Shown here piece after piece: positions 8,005 through 25,467 of a DNA stretch of 26,484 bases; the first letter of the stretch is position 1, and the number at the start of each line of letters is the position of its first letter. The notes beneath the pieces are model-generated. The model worked only from the letters and a program-made list of their open reading frames with translations. It was not told where the DNA came from and made no database searches. The stretch is from positions 1 through 26,484 of the IMG/VR virus record IMGVR_UViG_3300032516_000168; one strand, 5' to 3'. The position numbers and the translations under genes were made by a program. The stretch is from a virus.

Positions 8005-8535
8005 TTATCCTCCCATTTCTTCATCTAACATTCTTAGAGCTATCTTATCATCTCCAAAAGTGTTAAGCTTATCTAACCAGGTCTGAGTTTTATCATGTTC
8101 CTCCACCTGTTCTTTCAAATAACGCATACAAAGTTCATATAACATATGATCACCTTCCTTTAAAGCACCACTAGCCATCACCTTGATTTGCTTAGTAACT
8201 ACTATTTCATGATCATAAGAAGCTCTAATAATTGCGGGCAAACCTTCAAAAGTAGTAGGTTGAACAGCAAGAACGGGTGTAGACGGAGTAACACCCATGG
8301 CCAACAAGTACTCACGAGCCCAATCTGAATGAGTCATTTCCTCATCAGCATATTTTTTCCACAACTTTGCGGCGCCCGTATATCCTTCATTATTTAACCA
8401 CATTGACATGGATAAGTAAAGGCGTGAAGATTCTTCTTCTTGTTGGATACGATATTGTAAGTTCTTAATACAATGGTCATCAATCATTGGATTGTGAGTC
8501 TTTTTGTACGGTCTTTTTAAAAAATCTGTTGCCAT
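8005..8535 (-). CDS. Ferritin (bacterial non-haem FtnA-like) with intact ferroxidase centre
   Basis: 176 aa, close to the ~165 aa of bacterial ferritins, with an N-terminal extension of ~17 basic residues. The four-helix bundle pattern is complete. Against E. coli FtnA the di-iron ligands can be placed one by one: E33 (E17), E66 and H69 in DEEMTH (E50, H53), E110 in YDHE (E94), Q143 and E146 in KEQVEEH (Q127, E130). All are present, so iron oxidation and storage is expected. It is therefore neither a decayed copy nor a Dps, which would carry a different inter-subunit site. The gene lies 2 bases after the stop of the connector-like gene and just before the 453-aa virion gene, inside the structural block. 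Estimated GC (~40%, by eye) is a little above its neighbours, which may mean separate acquisition. Whether the protein is packaged, part of the virion, or acts in the infected cell cannot be told. Confidence 0.9.
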   Translation of the reverse strand: MATDFLKRPYKKTHNPMIDDHCIKNLQYRIQQEEESSRLYLSMSMWLNNEGYTGAAKLWKKYADEEMTHSDWAREYLLAMGVTPSTPVLAVQPTTFEGLPAIIRASYDHEIVVTKQIKVMASGALKEGDHMLYELCMRYLKEQVEEHDKTQTWLDKLNTFGDDKIALRMLDEEMGG

Positions 8536-13717: not shown

Positions 13718-15007
13718 TTATCTTTTAAAGAATCCTGCGGGTCTTGCTAAACCTGTAGTCTTCTTACCTGTACCTCTTTGCTCATTTTCATCTACTCCAT
13801 TTCCTGAAGAGGTATTCTTATTAGCTTCTTCTGTTTTAAGTTTTCTAACAGTATCTGCTGTAACTTCTTTTTTAGTAGTCTCTCTAACTTTAGCTTTGTA
13901 TCCCTCGGGATCTGCTAATAACCAAAGAGCTTCTGCAATACGACCATGATCAGGCTCAATCCATTGATACTTTTCTAGTAAGTGACCTAACATGTTAGTT
14001 TTGGCGCCTTGTCTAGAAGTATAAGCGGGATTAATTAATCCGGCATATAACATACTTTGAGATTTCTTATCAAGCTTAATACCATTGATATTATCAGAAT
14101 CTAATACTTTATATACATCTTCTGTATAAGCTTTAGTCTGAGCTTGATACTGTCTCATTGCTCCTTCTTGTTGTTTAAGAATCCTATCACGCTCTTGCTC
14201 TTTAAGAGCTGTAAGTTTAGGTTGGAAGTTATTAAACTTCTTCTCTAATAGATCCTGATCTTTCCACTCATTAAGTTGTTCCTGGATTTCATCAGCAGTA
14301 CCAAATTGAGTAGCTGTAAGATAGTTCCTAATAACCATTTCTTGAGAGGCTTCAGACTTACCATCTACTTCGTAGACTTCTCTTACATCGGCTAGTTTTT
14401 TAAATAAGCCTTTTAGATCTTGTCCACCATTAGCTACGTAACTTGCAGCGAATTGTAGTTCTTCTGGTAAGTTATCAAAAAACGCAGTAGAAAGATCCTT
14501 CTGCATCTTTTCTTCTTTAGCTTTATTATTCTCCTTATAAAGATCTTCAAAGTCTTTTAAGGTATACTTGTCTATAGGAGTATCTCCTTCAAAAGCTGTA
14601 AGTAAACCTTCTTCAATAAGTTTAGTAGTAAGTTCTACTATACCTGTTGCTCGTCCACCTTTTTTATTAGGATCTGGTGTACCACCTTCATCCTCTTCGC
14701 CTTCTTTCTTACCCAGATTATCTAGTAAGTCTGCACCAGCTTGAGTAGATGCTGGAGTAGGATTAGCAGCTGCAGCTTTTGCGGCTTCGGCAGCTTTCTT
14801 CTTTTCAGGATCTGCTTCATCTCCTTCTCCTTCATCAGGATCGGGATTGTCAAGGAACGTCATGTCCATTTTTTTATTCGAGAAGATGGACGGCTTCTCT
14901 GGTTTCTTTGTGCCGTCAGGAAGAAGAGCTACGTCTGCTCCTGGTTGGGCTAACAGAGTGTTGATATCGATATCAGCCTCTGCTACTGTTGTTTGGGTAT
15001 TACTCAT
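13718..15007 (-). CDS. Capsid scaffold-like protein, acidic and helical
   Basis: 429 aa between portal and major capsid genes. Residues ~50-120 are very acidic and Ala/Pro/Gly-rich, probably disordered (DNPDPDEGEGDEADPEKKKA). A helical section follows with many charged residues (EEKMQKDLSTAFFDNLPEEL, LTALKEQERDRILKQQEGAM). The C-terminus is a short basic patch (GLARPAGFFKR). Acidic disordered segment, long helices and a basic C-terminal capsid-binding tip are the usual layout of phage scaffolds, which line the procapsid and leave before packaging. Position supports this. The gene has its own -7 box (15056-15063) and a tandem AAACCAAC leader. An alternative is a permanent internal head protein. 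Confidence 0.7.
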   Translation of the reverse strand: MSNTQTTVAEADIDINTLLAQPGADVALLPDGTKKPEKPSIFSNKKMDMTFLDNPDPDEGEGDEADPEKKKAAEAAKAAAANPTPASTQAGADLLDNLGKKEGEEDEGGTPDPNKKGGRATGIVELTTKLIEEGLLTAFEGDTPIDKYTLKDFEDLYKENNKAKEEKMQKDLSTAFFDNLPEELQFAASYVANGGQDLKGLFKKLADVREVYEVDGKSEASQEMVIRNYLTATQFGTADEIQEQLNEWKDQDLLEKKFNNFQPKLTALKEQERDRILKQQEGAMRQYQAQTKAYTEDVYKVLDSDNINGIKLDKKSQSMLYAGLINPAYTSRQGAKTNMLGHLLEKYQWIEPDHGRIAEALWLLADPEGYKAKVRETTKKEVTADTVRKLKTEEANKNTSSGNGVDENEQRGTGKKTTGLARPAGFFKR

Positions 15008-15055: not shown

Positions 15056-15063
15056 CAAAAATA
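15056..15063 (-). promoter_or_regulatory. Bacteroidota-type -7 box for scaffold/capsid transcription
   Basis: TATTTTTG on the minus strand matches TAnnTTTG. It sits in the 128-base gap between portal and scaffold genes. One AAGTTTA site (minus strand, 15070-15076) lies just upstream. That heptamer is clustered at the promoter near 24900. No clear -33 TTG was found. Confidence 0.5.
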
Positions 15064-15135
15064 TGCAAATAAACTTTATAAGTGTGCGAATATTATATCT
15101 TAATAAAAAATATATGCTAACATAGGGCTAATACG

Positions 15136-22972: not shown

Positions 22973-23245
22973 TTATAGTTTTTCTGATTTCCACTTAGCA
23001 CCATCTGGGTGAGGACATTCTGAATCTAAAGATCTGAGTTTTACAGACTCACTACAACCACATTGACCACAGCAAGGACCTGTACCAGGAACTAAGCATT
23101 TACTTCCTACTACGTCTCTTAAAGGACAAGCTACACAGATCTTTAGTCTCTTGTAATATATTTTTTCTATAGGATCTCTTTTAAAGATCTTATTCAGTAA
23201 TCCTGCTAGTATCAGGAATTTGCTCTGCCATATCTTTTTTAGCAT
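22973..23245 (-). CDS. Cys-rich putative metal-binding protein
   Basis: 90 aa from ATG 23243-23245. A longer frame upstream would only enlarge the overlap with the HU/IHF gene, which is already 56 bases. The N-terminus is a hydrophobic helix (IWQSKFLILAGLLNKIF). Then comes RLKICVACPLRD, KCLVPGTGPCCGQCGCSES and ECPHPDGAKW, giving nine Cys: C-x2-C, C, CC-x2-C-x-C and C. The spacing suggests two zinc or iron-sulfur sites. I recall similar CCG-CGC small proteins in large phages and Bacteroidota, without a function. The hydrophobic N-terminus could attach it to a membrane. Confidence 0.6.
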   Translation of the reverse strand: MLKKIWQSKFLILAGLLNKIFKRDPIEKIYYKRLKICVACPLRDVVGSKCLVPGTGPCCGQCGCSESVKLRSLDSECPHPDGAKWKSEKL

Positions 23246-23612
23246 AATATTCTTCTCTTCTTTTTCTAGTTTCAAACTTACGAGTAGATTCACTATCTAG
23301 CATCTTAAAAAGATTACTAAATTTATCTACTCTTTCTTGTACACTCTTACGTATGGTAACCATCTTAAAACTACTAGAGTCCGATAATTTTTTTAACATA
23401 CGTTGATACTTTTCATGTATTAAGGTAATCTTTTTTCTTTTTACTTTAAAGGTTCCTAGTCCTAGTACATGTATATTAATAAAAGTAAGCTCTGATAAGT
23501 TTCTTCTAACTTCTTTATAATAATGATCTACAGCAGCCTGTACTAAGCTCTCCGATACTCCTAGTTTAGTAGCTACTATTTTATACATGTCTTTAGGCTT
23601 CTTGGGTACCAA
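23190..23612 (-). CDS. HU/IHF-like DNA-binding protein with C-terminal extension
   Basis: 140 aa. The core aligns with the HU fold: a helix-turn-helix start (DMYKIVATKLGVSESLVQAAVDHYYKEVRRNL) followed by beta strands with INIHVLGLGTFKVKRKK, matching the V-x-L-x-G-F-G-x-F signature at the base of the DNA-binding arm. HU is ~90 aa, so the last ~50 charged residues (FETRKRREEYYAKKD) are an extension. I start at TTG 23610-23612 because this supplies the first HU helix (KPKDMYK). The first ATG (23586-23588) would cut it and leave only three residues before the conserved block. The TTG overlaps the upstream gene by 20 bases. An IHF-like protein near the packaging genes is a known feature of crAss-like phages. 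It may bend DNA in replication, packaging or transcription. Confidence 0.75.
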   Translation of the reverse strand: MVPKKPKDMYKIVATKLGVSESLVQAAVDHYYKEVRRNLSELTFINIHVLGLGTFKVKRKKITLIHEKYQRMLKKLSDSSSFKMVTIRKSVQERVDKFSNLFKMLDSESTRKFETRKRREEYYAKKDMAEQIPDTSRITE

Positions 23613-24015
23613 CGTAAAAAGCTTTATAGTTTAATAAAATATTACCTGTTGTTTGTATCTTAATATCCGGATGTAAATATATAGTCTTTCTTCCTTTACC
23701 TTCTTTCTTTATTAAGTTAAACTTTTCCGCACGAAGTAGGACATTACGTATAGTCTGGGGAGACGGCTCAGGCTTCTCTTTTCCAGCATACTCTTCTGCC
23801 CTCTTTTGAATCTTGGCTTCTAGTCTAATAGCAGCAAGATCATCACAGAATTCTGTAAGTTCAGATTTACCTAGTTGCCCTAAGTAAGATAAACACTCTA
23901 AGTCTAACTCGCTTAGAGGAATCTTCTCTATATGGCAATGAGTAATAAGTTGGAACCGGATAAGATCATCCAGTTCCATCTTTATTTGCTTATCTACTAC
24001 ATTAAATTTTGCCAT
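23593..24015 (-). CDS. Winged-helix-like putative DNA-binding protein
   Basis: 140 aa from ATG 24013-24015. The upstream ATG five codons earlier is possible. Residues 1-75 are helical and acidic (VDKQIKMELDDLIRFQLITH, LDLECLSYLGQLGKSELTEF). Residues ~84-116 look like a winged helix: SPQTIRNVLLRAEKFNLIKK, where the recognition helix would be, then a Lys/Gly turn and RKTIYLHPD as the wing strand. Together with the HU/IHF-like gene next to it, a regulatory or DNA-architecture role is inferred. A 90-base gap separates it from the M15 peptidase gene and may hold a promoter, but no consensus -7 box was found there. Confidence 0.6.
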   Translation of the reverse strand: MAKFNVVDKQIKMELDDLIRFQLITHCHIEKIPLSELDLECLSYLGQLGKSELTEFCDDLAAIRLEAKIQKRAEEYAGKEKPEPSPQTIRNVLLRAEKFNLIKKEGKGRKTIYLHPDIKIQTTGNILLNYKAFYVGTQEA

Positions 24016-24105: not shown

Positions 24106-24567
24106 TTATGGTTTAACTGCTTGAAAATGCATATAATCGTATCCCTTCTCTTTACCTAAAGAATACCATCCGTGTTTATAGAAAATATCGATCATAGGTT
24201 TATAAGGGGCATCGTCAAAGATTGCTTTATCTGCATGCATGGTTAAGTCATTATCTGTAGGATCTAAGTCTATGGCTATTCCCCAAGAGTGTACACTCCA
24301 CTCAGATCCATTACGCATCTTGCGAAAGTTATAGCATCCTCCAAATCTATCAATCTTAAGTTCTTGTAATTTAGCTAATCCATAATGACTTAAAAGATCT
24401 TTAAAGATAGCTTGCATAGTGGTAGCTACTAGTTTATGACACTGAAGCTTTGTTACAGTATGAGTAAGATCCCATGATATCTTCATAGGATAGGGTAGTT
24501 GAATAACTACCAAATTCTCTACTTCGCCTGGGGCTCCATAAAGTTTAGTGATATCTGCAGAAGTCAT
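24106..24567 (-). CDS. M15-family D-Ala-D-Ala carboxypeptidase/endopeptidase-like endolysin
   Basis: 153 aa. The M15 (VanY/M15_4) metal site is complete: S-x-H at 91-93 and D100 in SVHSWGIAIDLDP, then GYDYMHFQ with D144 and H147. This zinc-dependent fold cleaves peptide bonds in peptidoglycan cross-links. There is no signal peptide, so release into the cell wall would need a holin or similar; the membrane protein at 25012-25467 is a candidate. Length is close to small phage M15 endolysins. The gene shares one base with the stop of the 100-aa gene (TAATG) and belongs to the transcript from the promoter at 24893-24923. It may instead be a virion-associated lysin used at entry. Confidence 0.88.
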   Translation of the reverse strand: MTSADITKLYGAPGEVENLVVIQLPYPMKISWDLTHTVTKLQCHKLVATTMQAIFKDLLSHYGLAKLQELKIDRFGGCYNFRKMRNGSEWSVHSWGIAIDLDPTDNDLTMHADKAIFDDAPYKPMIDIFYKHGWYSLGKEKGYDYMHFQAVKP

Positions 24568-24869
24568 TACGCGTCTGGCTTAAGTTTACGAATAGGAGTT
24601 TCTGTAGTAGCTGAAACTTTTTCTTGAGCTTGTGCTTCTTTCATCTGAGCATCCATCTGAGCCATCTTGATAATGGCCATTCTGTTACGAAGTTCAAACT
24701 CTGACATCTCTGATATCATCTTTACATATTCATGTTCATACTTATGAGCGTCGATAAGAGTTTTGTAGTATTCCTCCATATCTTTACGCTTCGCTAAAAA
24801 TTCTTCTGCTTGTGCTTTTGTAGCTACGGATTCTTCCACTACAACACCTGGATCCATTGTGTCTGACAT
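24567..24869 (-). CDS. Small helical protein (100 aa), first gene after the AAGTTTA promoter
   Basis: 100 aa, soluble and almost all helical: ATKAQAEEFLAKRKDMEEYY, then DAHKYEHEYVKMISEMSEFE and an Ala/Gln-Met helix (AIIKMAQMDAQMKEAQAQE). A long amphipathic helix or coiled coil without a membrane segment is likely. I recall similar helical proteins in Bacteroidota phages close to the structural genes, with no assigned role. It is the first gene downstream of the best promoter in the window and is coupled to the M15 peptidase by TAATG. The leader has one AAAACCAAC motif 4 bases before ATG. Confidence 0.65.
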   Translation of the reverse strand: MSDTMDPGVVVEESVATKAQAEEFLAKRKDMEEYYKTLIDAHKYEHEYVKMISEMSEFELRNRMAIIKMAQMDAQMKEAQAQEKVSATTETPIRKLKPDA

Positions 24870-24883
24870 ACTTGTTGGTTTTA

Positions 24884-24970
24884 AAGTTTAGACAAATATA
24901 CTATATAAGTTTAACTTCTACAAGTTTATACTTAAACTTTTTTGTTAAAAAGATAAACCCTGTAAGTTTA
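24884..24970. repeat. Cluster of five AAGTTTA heptamers around a promoter
   Basis: AAGTTTA occurs at 24884-24890, 24907-24913, 24922-24928 and 24964-24970, and inverted (TAAACTT) at 24933-24939. The third and fourth form a perfect 7-bp inverted repeat with a 4-base spacer (24922-24939). The sites sit downstream of the -7 box, between -7 and -33, over the -33, and in the loop of the terminator. The pattern suggests an operator for a dimeric regulator; the region is AT-rich, so some copies may be chance. Confidence 0.55.
24893..24923 (-). promoter_or_regulatory. Bacteroidota-type promoter, TTG-20-TATATTTG
   Basis: On the minus strand TTG (24921-24923) and TATATTTG (24893-24900) are 20 bases apart, matching the -33/-7 layout TTG...TAnnTTTG of Bacteroidota promoters. 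Predicted transcription starts near 24886 and would give a ~17-base leader to the ATG at 24869. It lies directly after a terminator, as expected for a new operon. Confidence 0.75.
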
Positions 24971-24982
24971 ACTACAGGGTTT
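24944..24982 (-). terminator. Intrinsic terminator after the holin-like gene
   Basis: On the minus strand a perfect 10-bp stem, AAACCCTGTA / TACAGGGTTT, with an 8-base loop is followed by ATCTTTTTAAC. It lies 29 bases after the stop of the gene at 25012. It separates the hydrolase/holin operon from the promoter at 24893-24923. Confidence 0.85.
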
Positions 24983-25011
24983 AGGTAGGGACTATATGTA
25001 AAAGAACGATC

Positions 25012-25467
25012 TTATTCTTCTTTCTTAGCTCTAATGTATCCAGTTAATTCAGCAAGATTGGTGCTTATTAAATTCATCTGAGTTCCTAGAGTATCAAGCT
25101 TTACACTCATTTTCTCATGAGAGTCTTTTTGCTCTTTTCTACTGTCTTCAATCTTTATATAGATCTGAGTTTCTTTCTCCTTAAACTCTTCCCTGTTACG
25201 GTTAATTTCTTCATATATAGCCATGATGTTTGCTTTTTTTGCATTCTTAGCATGGAGGAACTTTTCATCCATATCGGTTTTCATAGTTACTAAGGACTTC
25301 TCAGTATCAGATTGTAACTCATCTTGGGCTAGATCTAAGCTATTCATTCTTGTCTTATTTTTATCAGCTTGATTCTTTATAGCGTAAACAAACCCCGCAC
25401 CTGATATTATAGCTACTATTATAGCTACTACATCTTTAATACCGAATGTTAAATCCTCTATATTCAT
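25012..25467 (-). CDS. Membrane-anchored coiled-coil protein, holin/spanin-like candidate
   Basis: 151 aa. One N-terminal membrane helix (VVAIIVAIISGAGFVYAI, about residues 13-30) is followed by a basic turn (KNQADKNKTR). Then comes a long heptad-like region to the end (EKSLVTMKTDMDEKFLHAKN, EIKDSRKEQKDSHEKM-type, LGTQMNLISTNLAELTGYI). This topology, a short N-out anchor plus a long coiled coil, is seen in phage lysis accessory proteins such as XhlA/holin-like or spanin-like proteins. Its neighbours are a permuted NlpC/P60 hydrolase upstream and an M15 peptidase downstream of a terminator, so a lysis cassette is inferred. One membrane helix alone does not prove pore formation; a tail or entry membrane protein is also possible. 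Confidence 0.6.
   Translation of the reverse strand: MNIEDLTFGIKDVVAIIVAIISGAGFVYAIKNQADKNKTRMNSLDLAQDELQSDTEKSLVTMKTDMDEKFLHAKNAKKANIMAIYEEINRNREEFKEKETQIYIKIEDSRKEQKDSHEKMSVKLDTLGTQMNLISTNLAELTGYIRAKKEE

Follow-up and report, generated by a model that had tools for sequence, protein, structure and literature searches.

The late activator C of phage Mu acts at the promoters lys, I, P and mom (PMC4461284). As proposed for the phage described here, one Mu protein serves a handful of late promoters for lysis, head and other modules and works with the host RNA polymerase (PMC4461284); in both cases the target promoters have poor -10/-35 elements and the arrangement of sites varies by promoter. 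The Mu system belongs to another host phylum and another promoter type, and its C sites lie upstream of the -35, whereas the sites here are in the -33/-7 spacer or nearer. Protein p4 of phi29 is also a sequence-specific phage protein that reads AT-rich inverted repeats (PMC3100819). It represses promoters with sites over the -35 and activates a late promoter with a poor -35 (PMC3100819), and both signs of control are proposed here too. It is partnered by the nucleoid protein p6, much as a winged-helix gene and an HU gene are paired here. However, p4 has its own fold and binds CTTTTT-N15-AAAATG between adjacent promoters, while the present sites are spread among three or four promoters that lie far apart. 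At the middle promoters of T4, the MotA box replaces the upstream promoter element and the host -10 is kept, and this locus likewise has a phage box in place of an upstream element with the host -10 retained. The MotA boxes are asymmetric, centred near -30 and need AsiA, in contrast to the palindromic and multiple half-sites here, and the fold of the candidate regulator resembles the activation domain of MotA only weakly. The bacterial repressors Zur/Fur and MecI/BlaI resemble the present case in predicted fold and in palindromic operators that overlap promoters, but the candidate has no significant sequence match to solved structures.

The window, which is the whole 26.5-kb stretch of DNA analysed, is a piece of an uncultured tailed phage with its main genes, among them terminase, portal, scaffold-position and capsid genes, all on the minus strand. 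A ferritin/Dps-like gene (8005-8535; Pfam PF00210, E 3e-22) lies amid the structural genes. The 142-bp gap at 24870-25011, between genes 25012-25467 and 24567-24869, holds five copies of AAGTTTA (Table 1), four direct and one inverse, as the first-pass annotation had reported. None of 20,000 dinucleotide-shuffled versions of this gap attains five copies, and 0.65% of shuffles (26/4,000) have at least five of any heptamer. The annotation took all five for an apparent operator around the promoter. This holds for the four that surround promoter A, but the copy at 24964-24970 forms the loop and stem edge of a strong terminator hairpin and is probably incidental, a part of the terminator and not of the operator. 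The 56-nt stretch folded for this hairpin gives -16.7 kcal/mol (z -3.7), and several relatives likewise have a hairpin and T-run immediately before promoter A.

Table 1. Coordinates of the promoter elements, boxes and genes in the window.
Feature	Position	Strand	Remarks
AAGTTTA, direct copies	24884-24890, 24907-24913, 24922-24928, 24964-24970	+	
AAGTTTA, inverse copy	24933-24939		
Promoter A (lysis/packaging operon), -7 element TATATTTG	24893-24900	-	Sequence; kept in relatives
Promoter A, -33 TTG	24921-24923	-	20-nt spacer; sequence
Half-site over +1 of promoter A, about -2 to +5	24884-24890	+	Sequence; relatives
Putative main operator, near-palindrome AAGTTTAACTT	24907-24917	+	TTTAAAC in spacers of relatives
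Inverted repeat AAGTTTA-TACT-TAAACTT, about -34 to -51	24922-24939		Overlaps and lies upstream of -33
Intrinsic terminator hairpin of upstream gene 25012-25467	24954-24983	-	Holds fifth heptamer
Promoter B box AAGTTTA	15070-15076	-	6 nt upstream of -7; kept in relatives
Promoter B (scaffold/head operon), -7 element TATTTTTG	15056-15063	-	Sequence and relatives
First gene of operon A, 100 aa	24567-24869	-	Family in 10/10 near-complete relatives
Endolysin, M15 peptidase	24106-24567	-	
Winged-helix protein, candidate regulator	23593-24015	-	Conserved start MAKFNV; alignment, fold model
HU/IHF-like protein	23190-23612	-	Overlaps winged-helix gene by 20 nt; conserved in relatives
Scaffold-position gene, first of head operon under promoter B	13718-15007	-	

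The primary promoters of Bacteroidota, read by sigma-ABfr, have the -7 consensus TANNTTTG, in which -12 is T and -5 is G (PMC6847099). The -7 elements of promoters A and B both agree with it, and the TTG of promoter A agrees with the -33 of this class (TTTG/TTG at about 17-23 nt). In form, promoter A is a real Bacteroidota-type promoter on the minus strand (TTG-20-TATATTTG), with a predicted +1 near 24888. Read along the minus strand, the terminator hairpin is followed by the inverted repeat AAGTTTA-agta-TAAACTT and the TTG, then by the near-palindrome AAGTTAAACTT, 6 bases and the -7 element, and finally by 2 bases, a TAAACTT over the predicted start site and AAACCAACAAGT-ATG. The inverted repeat noticed at the -33 is indeed perfect, has a 4-nt spacer and touches the TTG; its exact arrangement is not the commonest layout among relatives. 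The most conserved element is the near-palindrome AAGTTTAACTT, which the annotation overlooked while listing the heptamers correctly. On the minus strand it places TAAACTT at -25 to -19, with 6 nt between this word and the -7, and its full form in many relatives is AAGTTTAAACTT. A literature search for this palindrome gave 11 papers; the titles of the 10 that were listed have nothing to do with phage promoters.

The leader of operon A also holds, on the minus strand, the word AACCAAC (in the stretch 24870-24882), the most enriched intergenic 7-mer of this phage group at 18-fold over coding sequence. It is found in leaders of scaffold and other genes of the relatives and sometimes just past the ATG. 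Across ten genomes, 36 of 801 start codons have this word in the preceding 30 nt, compared with 3-5 for rearranged words, and it is possibly a translation-start or 5'-mRNA element. To our knowledge, Bacteroidota are without Shine-Dalgarno sequences.

The comparison with relatives used 160 loci from terminase and winged-helix scans, some of which share contigs. Since a direct scan with the 100-aa first gene found no relatives, the region upstream of operon A was located by scans with the terminase, the endolysin and the winged-helix protein. The box core is carried by the lysis/packaging promoter in 50 of 60 dissimilar relatives, and these 50 regions with a recognisable promoter are the denominator for the counts that follow. 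The typical layout is (AAG)TTTAAACTT-N6-TATATTTG-N2/3-TAAACTT. TTTAAAC lies inside the spacer in 40/50, a half-site follows the -7 by no more than 16 nt in 38/50, and a TTG is present at a spacing of 17-23 in 29/50.

The single copy that had been noticed beside the -7 of the scaffold promoter also has a conserved position, and its orientation is opposite to that of promoter A. At least 32 of 35 relatives have the core GTTTA there (AAGTTTA in 26, ATGTTTA in 4); in at least one of the three exceptions (L015) the box is just outside the scanned stretch. The 6-nt spacing from box to -7 is present in 21 of the 24 relatives with a recognisable -7. Promoter B has no -33 TTG at the sigma-ABfr position. 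Upstream of this promoter, directly after the stop of the portal gene, many relatives have a conserved TAGC[T/C]ATATA[A/T]TGC (17054-17074 in L126).

Two further sites lie outside the window in long relatives, three of which are about 117 kb and probably complete because their ends are repeated. Promoter C, before a virion gene of 930-1130 aa, has three half-sites arranged R-N3-F-N1-R, usually 12 nt from TANNTTT[A/G]; at least two half-sites are present in 33/53, with 12 nt the commonest spacing. The likely promoter D has a half-site pair, R-N3-F, before a gene of 1000-1860 aa. One word recurs at several promoters in a conserved position, as expected of a regulon, which covers at least a third late promoter beyond A and B and probably a fourth.

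A repeat cluster close upstream of the terminase genes could also be a set of replication iterons or a packaging (pac/cos) site. That reading is very improbable, and a terminase-adjacent site of this kind is rejected, since the same half-sites, in register with -7 elements, recur at promoters that are 9 kb and about 40 kb distant; promoters are therefore marked and not one locus. Chance clustering in AT-rich intergenic DNA, retained through common descent, is less credible still. The word is AT-rich and some copies inside genes are background, but shuffles, permuted words and conservation in mutually dissimilar intergenic sequences all contradict this explanation. The whole window has 21 AAGTTTA against 11.8 expected, a number that none of 100 shuffles attains. 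The annotation held that a density equal to that of coding regions, or loss of position in relatives, would speak against an operator; instead, the density in relatives is 3.0/kb between genes and 0.55/kb in coding sequence, a 5- to 6-fold difference, and the positions are kept at both promoters. In the larger relative set AAGTTTA is the commonest intergenic 7-mer with one G/C and is 6.1-fold enriched. Clusters of at least two AAGTTTA are present in 37 of 60 mutually dissimilar regions upstream of the winged-helix gene, and at least two GTTTAAA on either strand in 49 of them, compared with 13 and fewer for the best permuted words without overlap with the motif. In 17 long contigs, 19 of 25 matches to strict A-like and B-like patterns fall on promoters A and B, while 40 permuted heptamers give a mean of 1.5-1.8 matches in all in the same contigs. 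Judged from these comparisons, AAGTTTA is a real, conserved box at the few promoters for lysis, packaging, head and other virion genes, and is in all likelihood functional.

The box could instead belong to the core promoter itself, serving as an alternative -33 or as an extended -7 that RNA polymerase reads with a phage or host sigma factor. The constant distance of 6 nt from the -7, shared by A and B, fits this explanation, but the distance grows to about 12 nt at C and to 17-20 nt at D, the orientation differs between A and B, additional copies cover the +1 and lie upstream of the -33, and the scanned proteins include no recognisable sigma factor or RNA polymerase. A core-promoter role is accordingly improbable. 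The annotation's proposal of one regulator site common to the lysis/packaging and head operons gains strong support from the intergenic enrichment, the conserved position and spacing, and a change of the box in one subclade. In that subclade (L037, L048 and G024) the scaffold promoter has ATGTTTA as its box and the promoter A half-sites are mostly TAAACATTT and AAATGTTTAA, so that the change from AAGTTTA to ATGTTTA affects two promoters 8-9 kb apart, which would be expected if one trans-acting factor reads both. In another relative (G017) the half-sites of promoter C are all AGGTTTA/TAAACCT while promoter A keeps AAGTTTA; the co-variation is therefore not general and is only suggestive of one factor. 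The winged-helix recognition helix (PQTVRN) has no obvious residue change in the ATGTTTA subclade.

Taken together, AAGTTTA is probably the half-site of a phage-encoded, sequence-specific regulator that co-ordinates late host-type (sigma-ABfr) promoters, with the winged-helix protein as candidate binder, promoter A repressed and promoters B, C and D activated. The phage regulator would read the half-sites and work with the host RNA polymerase. Promoter A is the best host-consensus promoter of the set. Because boxes fill its -33/-7 spacer and cover the +1, the geometry suggests that bound protein blocks polymerase there, giving autorepression. At promoters B, C and D a clear -33 is missing, the -7 is often imperfect and the boxes lie solely upstream of it; for this reason bound protein may recruit polymerase at these promoters and activate them. 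Operon A would first yield its regulator and then shut off while the head and other virion operons come on. On this geometry the late switch may be self-limiting, and it would be comparable to the phi29 p4/p6 and Mu C systems. A single simple dimer mode does not explain all of the sites, since half-site orientation and spacing differ between promoters.

The winged-helix protein of operon A is the best candidate for the regulator, a plausible assignment given its position and predicted fold, and it may bind as a dimer or array. Its family is present in 10/10 near-complete relatives. The predicted model (pLDDT 80.7) has a winged-helix fold with Zur, MecI and BlaI as structural neighbours in the PDB, the best match being the zinc regulator Zur in its DNA-bound form (Z 11.5; 89 residues at 2.4 A). 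The protein has no match in Pfam or PHROGs and none by sequence in the PDB up to E 1, and membership in the Fur/Zur or MecI/BlaI families is not proposed, for want of sequence homology (Pfam, PDB). A tblastn search found no relatives in named phages; the distant Leptolyngbya phage Lbo-JY46 (L352) was recovered only by profile and encodes homologues of the winged-helix and HU proteins in the same order, with no such box at its scaffold promoter. The gut crAss-like phage cr55_1 has no AAGTTTA in the gaps read before structural genes, and its annotated regulator upstream of the terminase has no significant profile match to the winged-helix family.

The annotation had named both the winged-helix and the HU/IHF-like proteins as possible binders. 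The HU/IHF-like protein (Pfam PF00216, E 6e-4, below the curated cut-off) is the weaker candidate, and may help its neighbour through DNA bending. That the same operators have another reader, whether this protein, an undetected early phage protein or a hijacked host regulator, is unlikely, with evidence on both sides. The HU-like gene is also conserved next to the winged-helix gene, many conserved early genes have no recognisable family, and phage late activators are usually early or middle proteins. However, HU proteins bind DNA with low specificity, and a host factor would not readily account for box changes across a subclade. An early-strand protein with a helix-turn-helix-like N-terminus (L219:11473-12105), conserved in 8/10 near-complete relatives, is beside a helicase-like gene and is therefore more likely replicative than regulatory, possibly a helicase loader.

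The nearest named relatives are crAss-like phages, whose best-scoring terminases share about 25% identity or less with the one here, and the best match of the capsid protein is Lbo-JY46 at 28%. Without a close terminase or capsid relationship, membership in the named Crassvirales families was rejected and the kinship is distant only. The clade is a large uncultured crAss-related phage group, and its hosts are probably Bacteroidota. Lbo-JY46, which is kin to the clade, has promoters of the Bacteroidota type TANNTTTG and a record that names a cyanobacterial host; its real host may be a Bacteroidota companion.

A phage late-gene regulator is a known class of mechanism; the box and its regulon are new, and the regulator family probably is. 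It is proposed only tentatively, as a possibility open to considerable doubt, that an undescribed family of phage winged-helix regulators with an HU-like partner uses shared AAGTTTA half-sites to repress its own lysis/packaging operon and to activate those for the head and other virion genes, as the dedicated late switch of this crAss-related clade. Late-gene control is little known in the crAss-related phages of Bacteroidota. The box defines a small regulon, with three or four promoters in each genome, which is readable straight from metagenomic genomes and testable with a few DNA fragments and a single small protein. Phage-derived, regulatable promoters for Bacteroidota would be a further gain.
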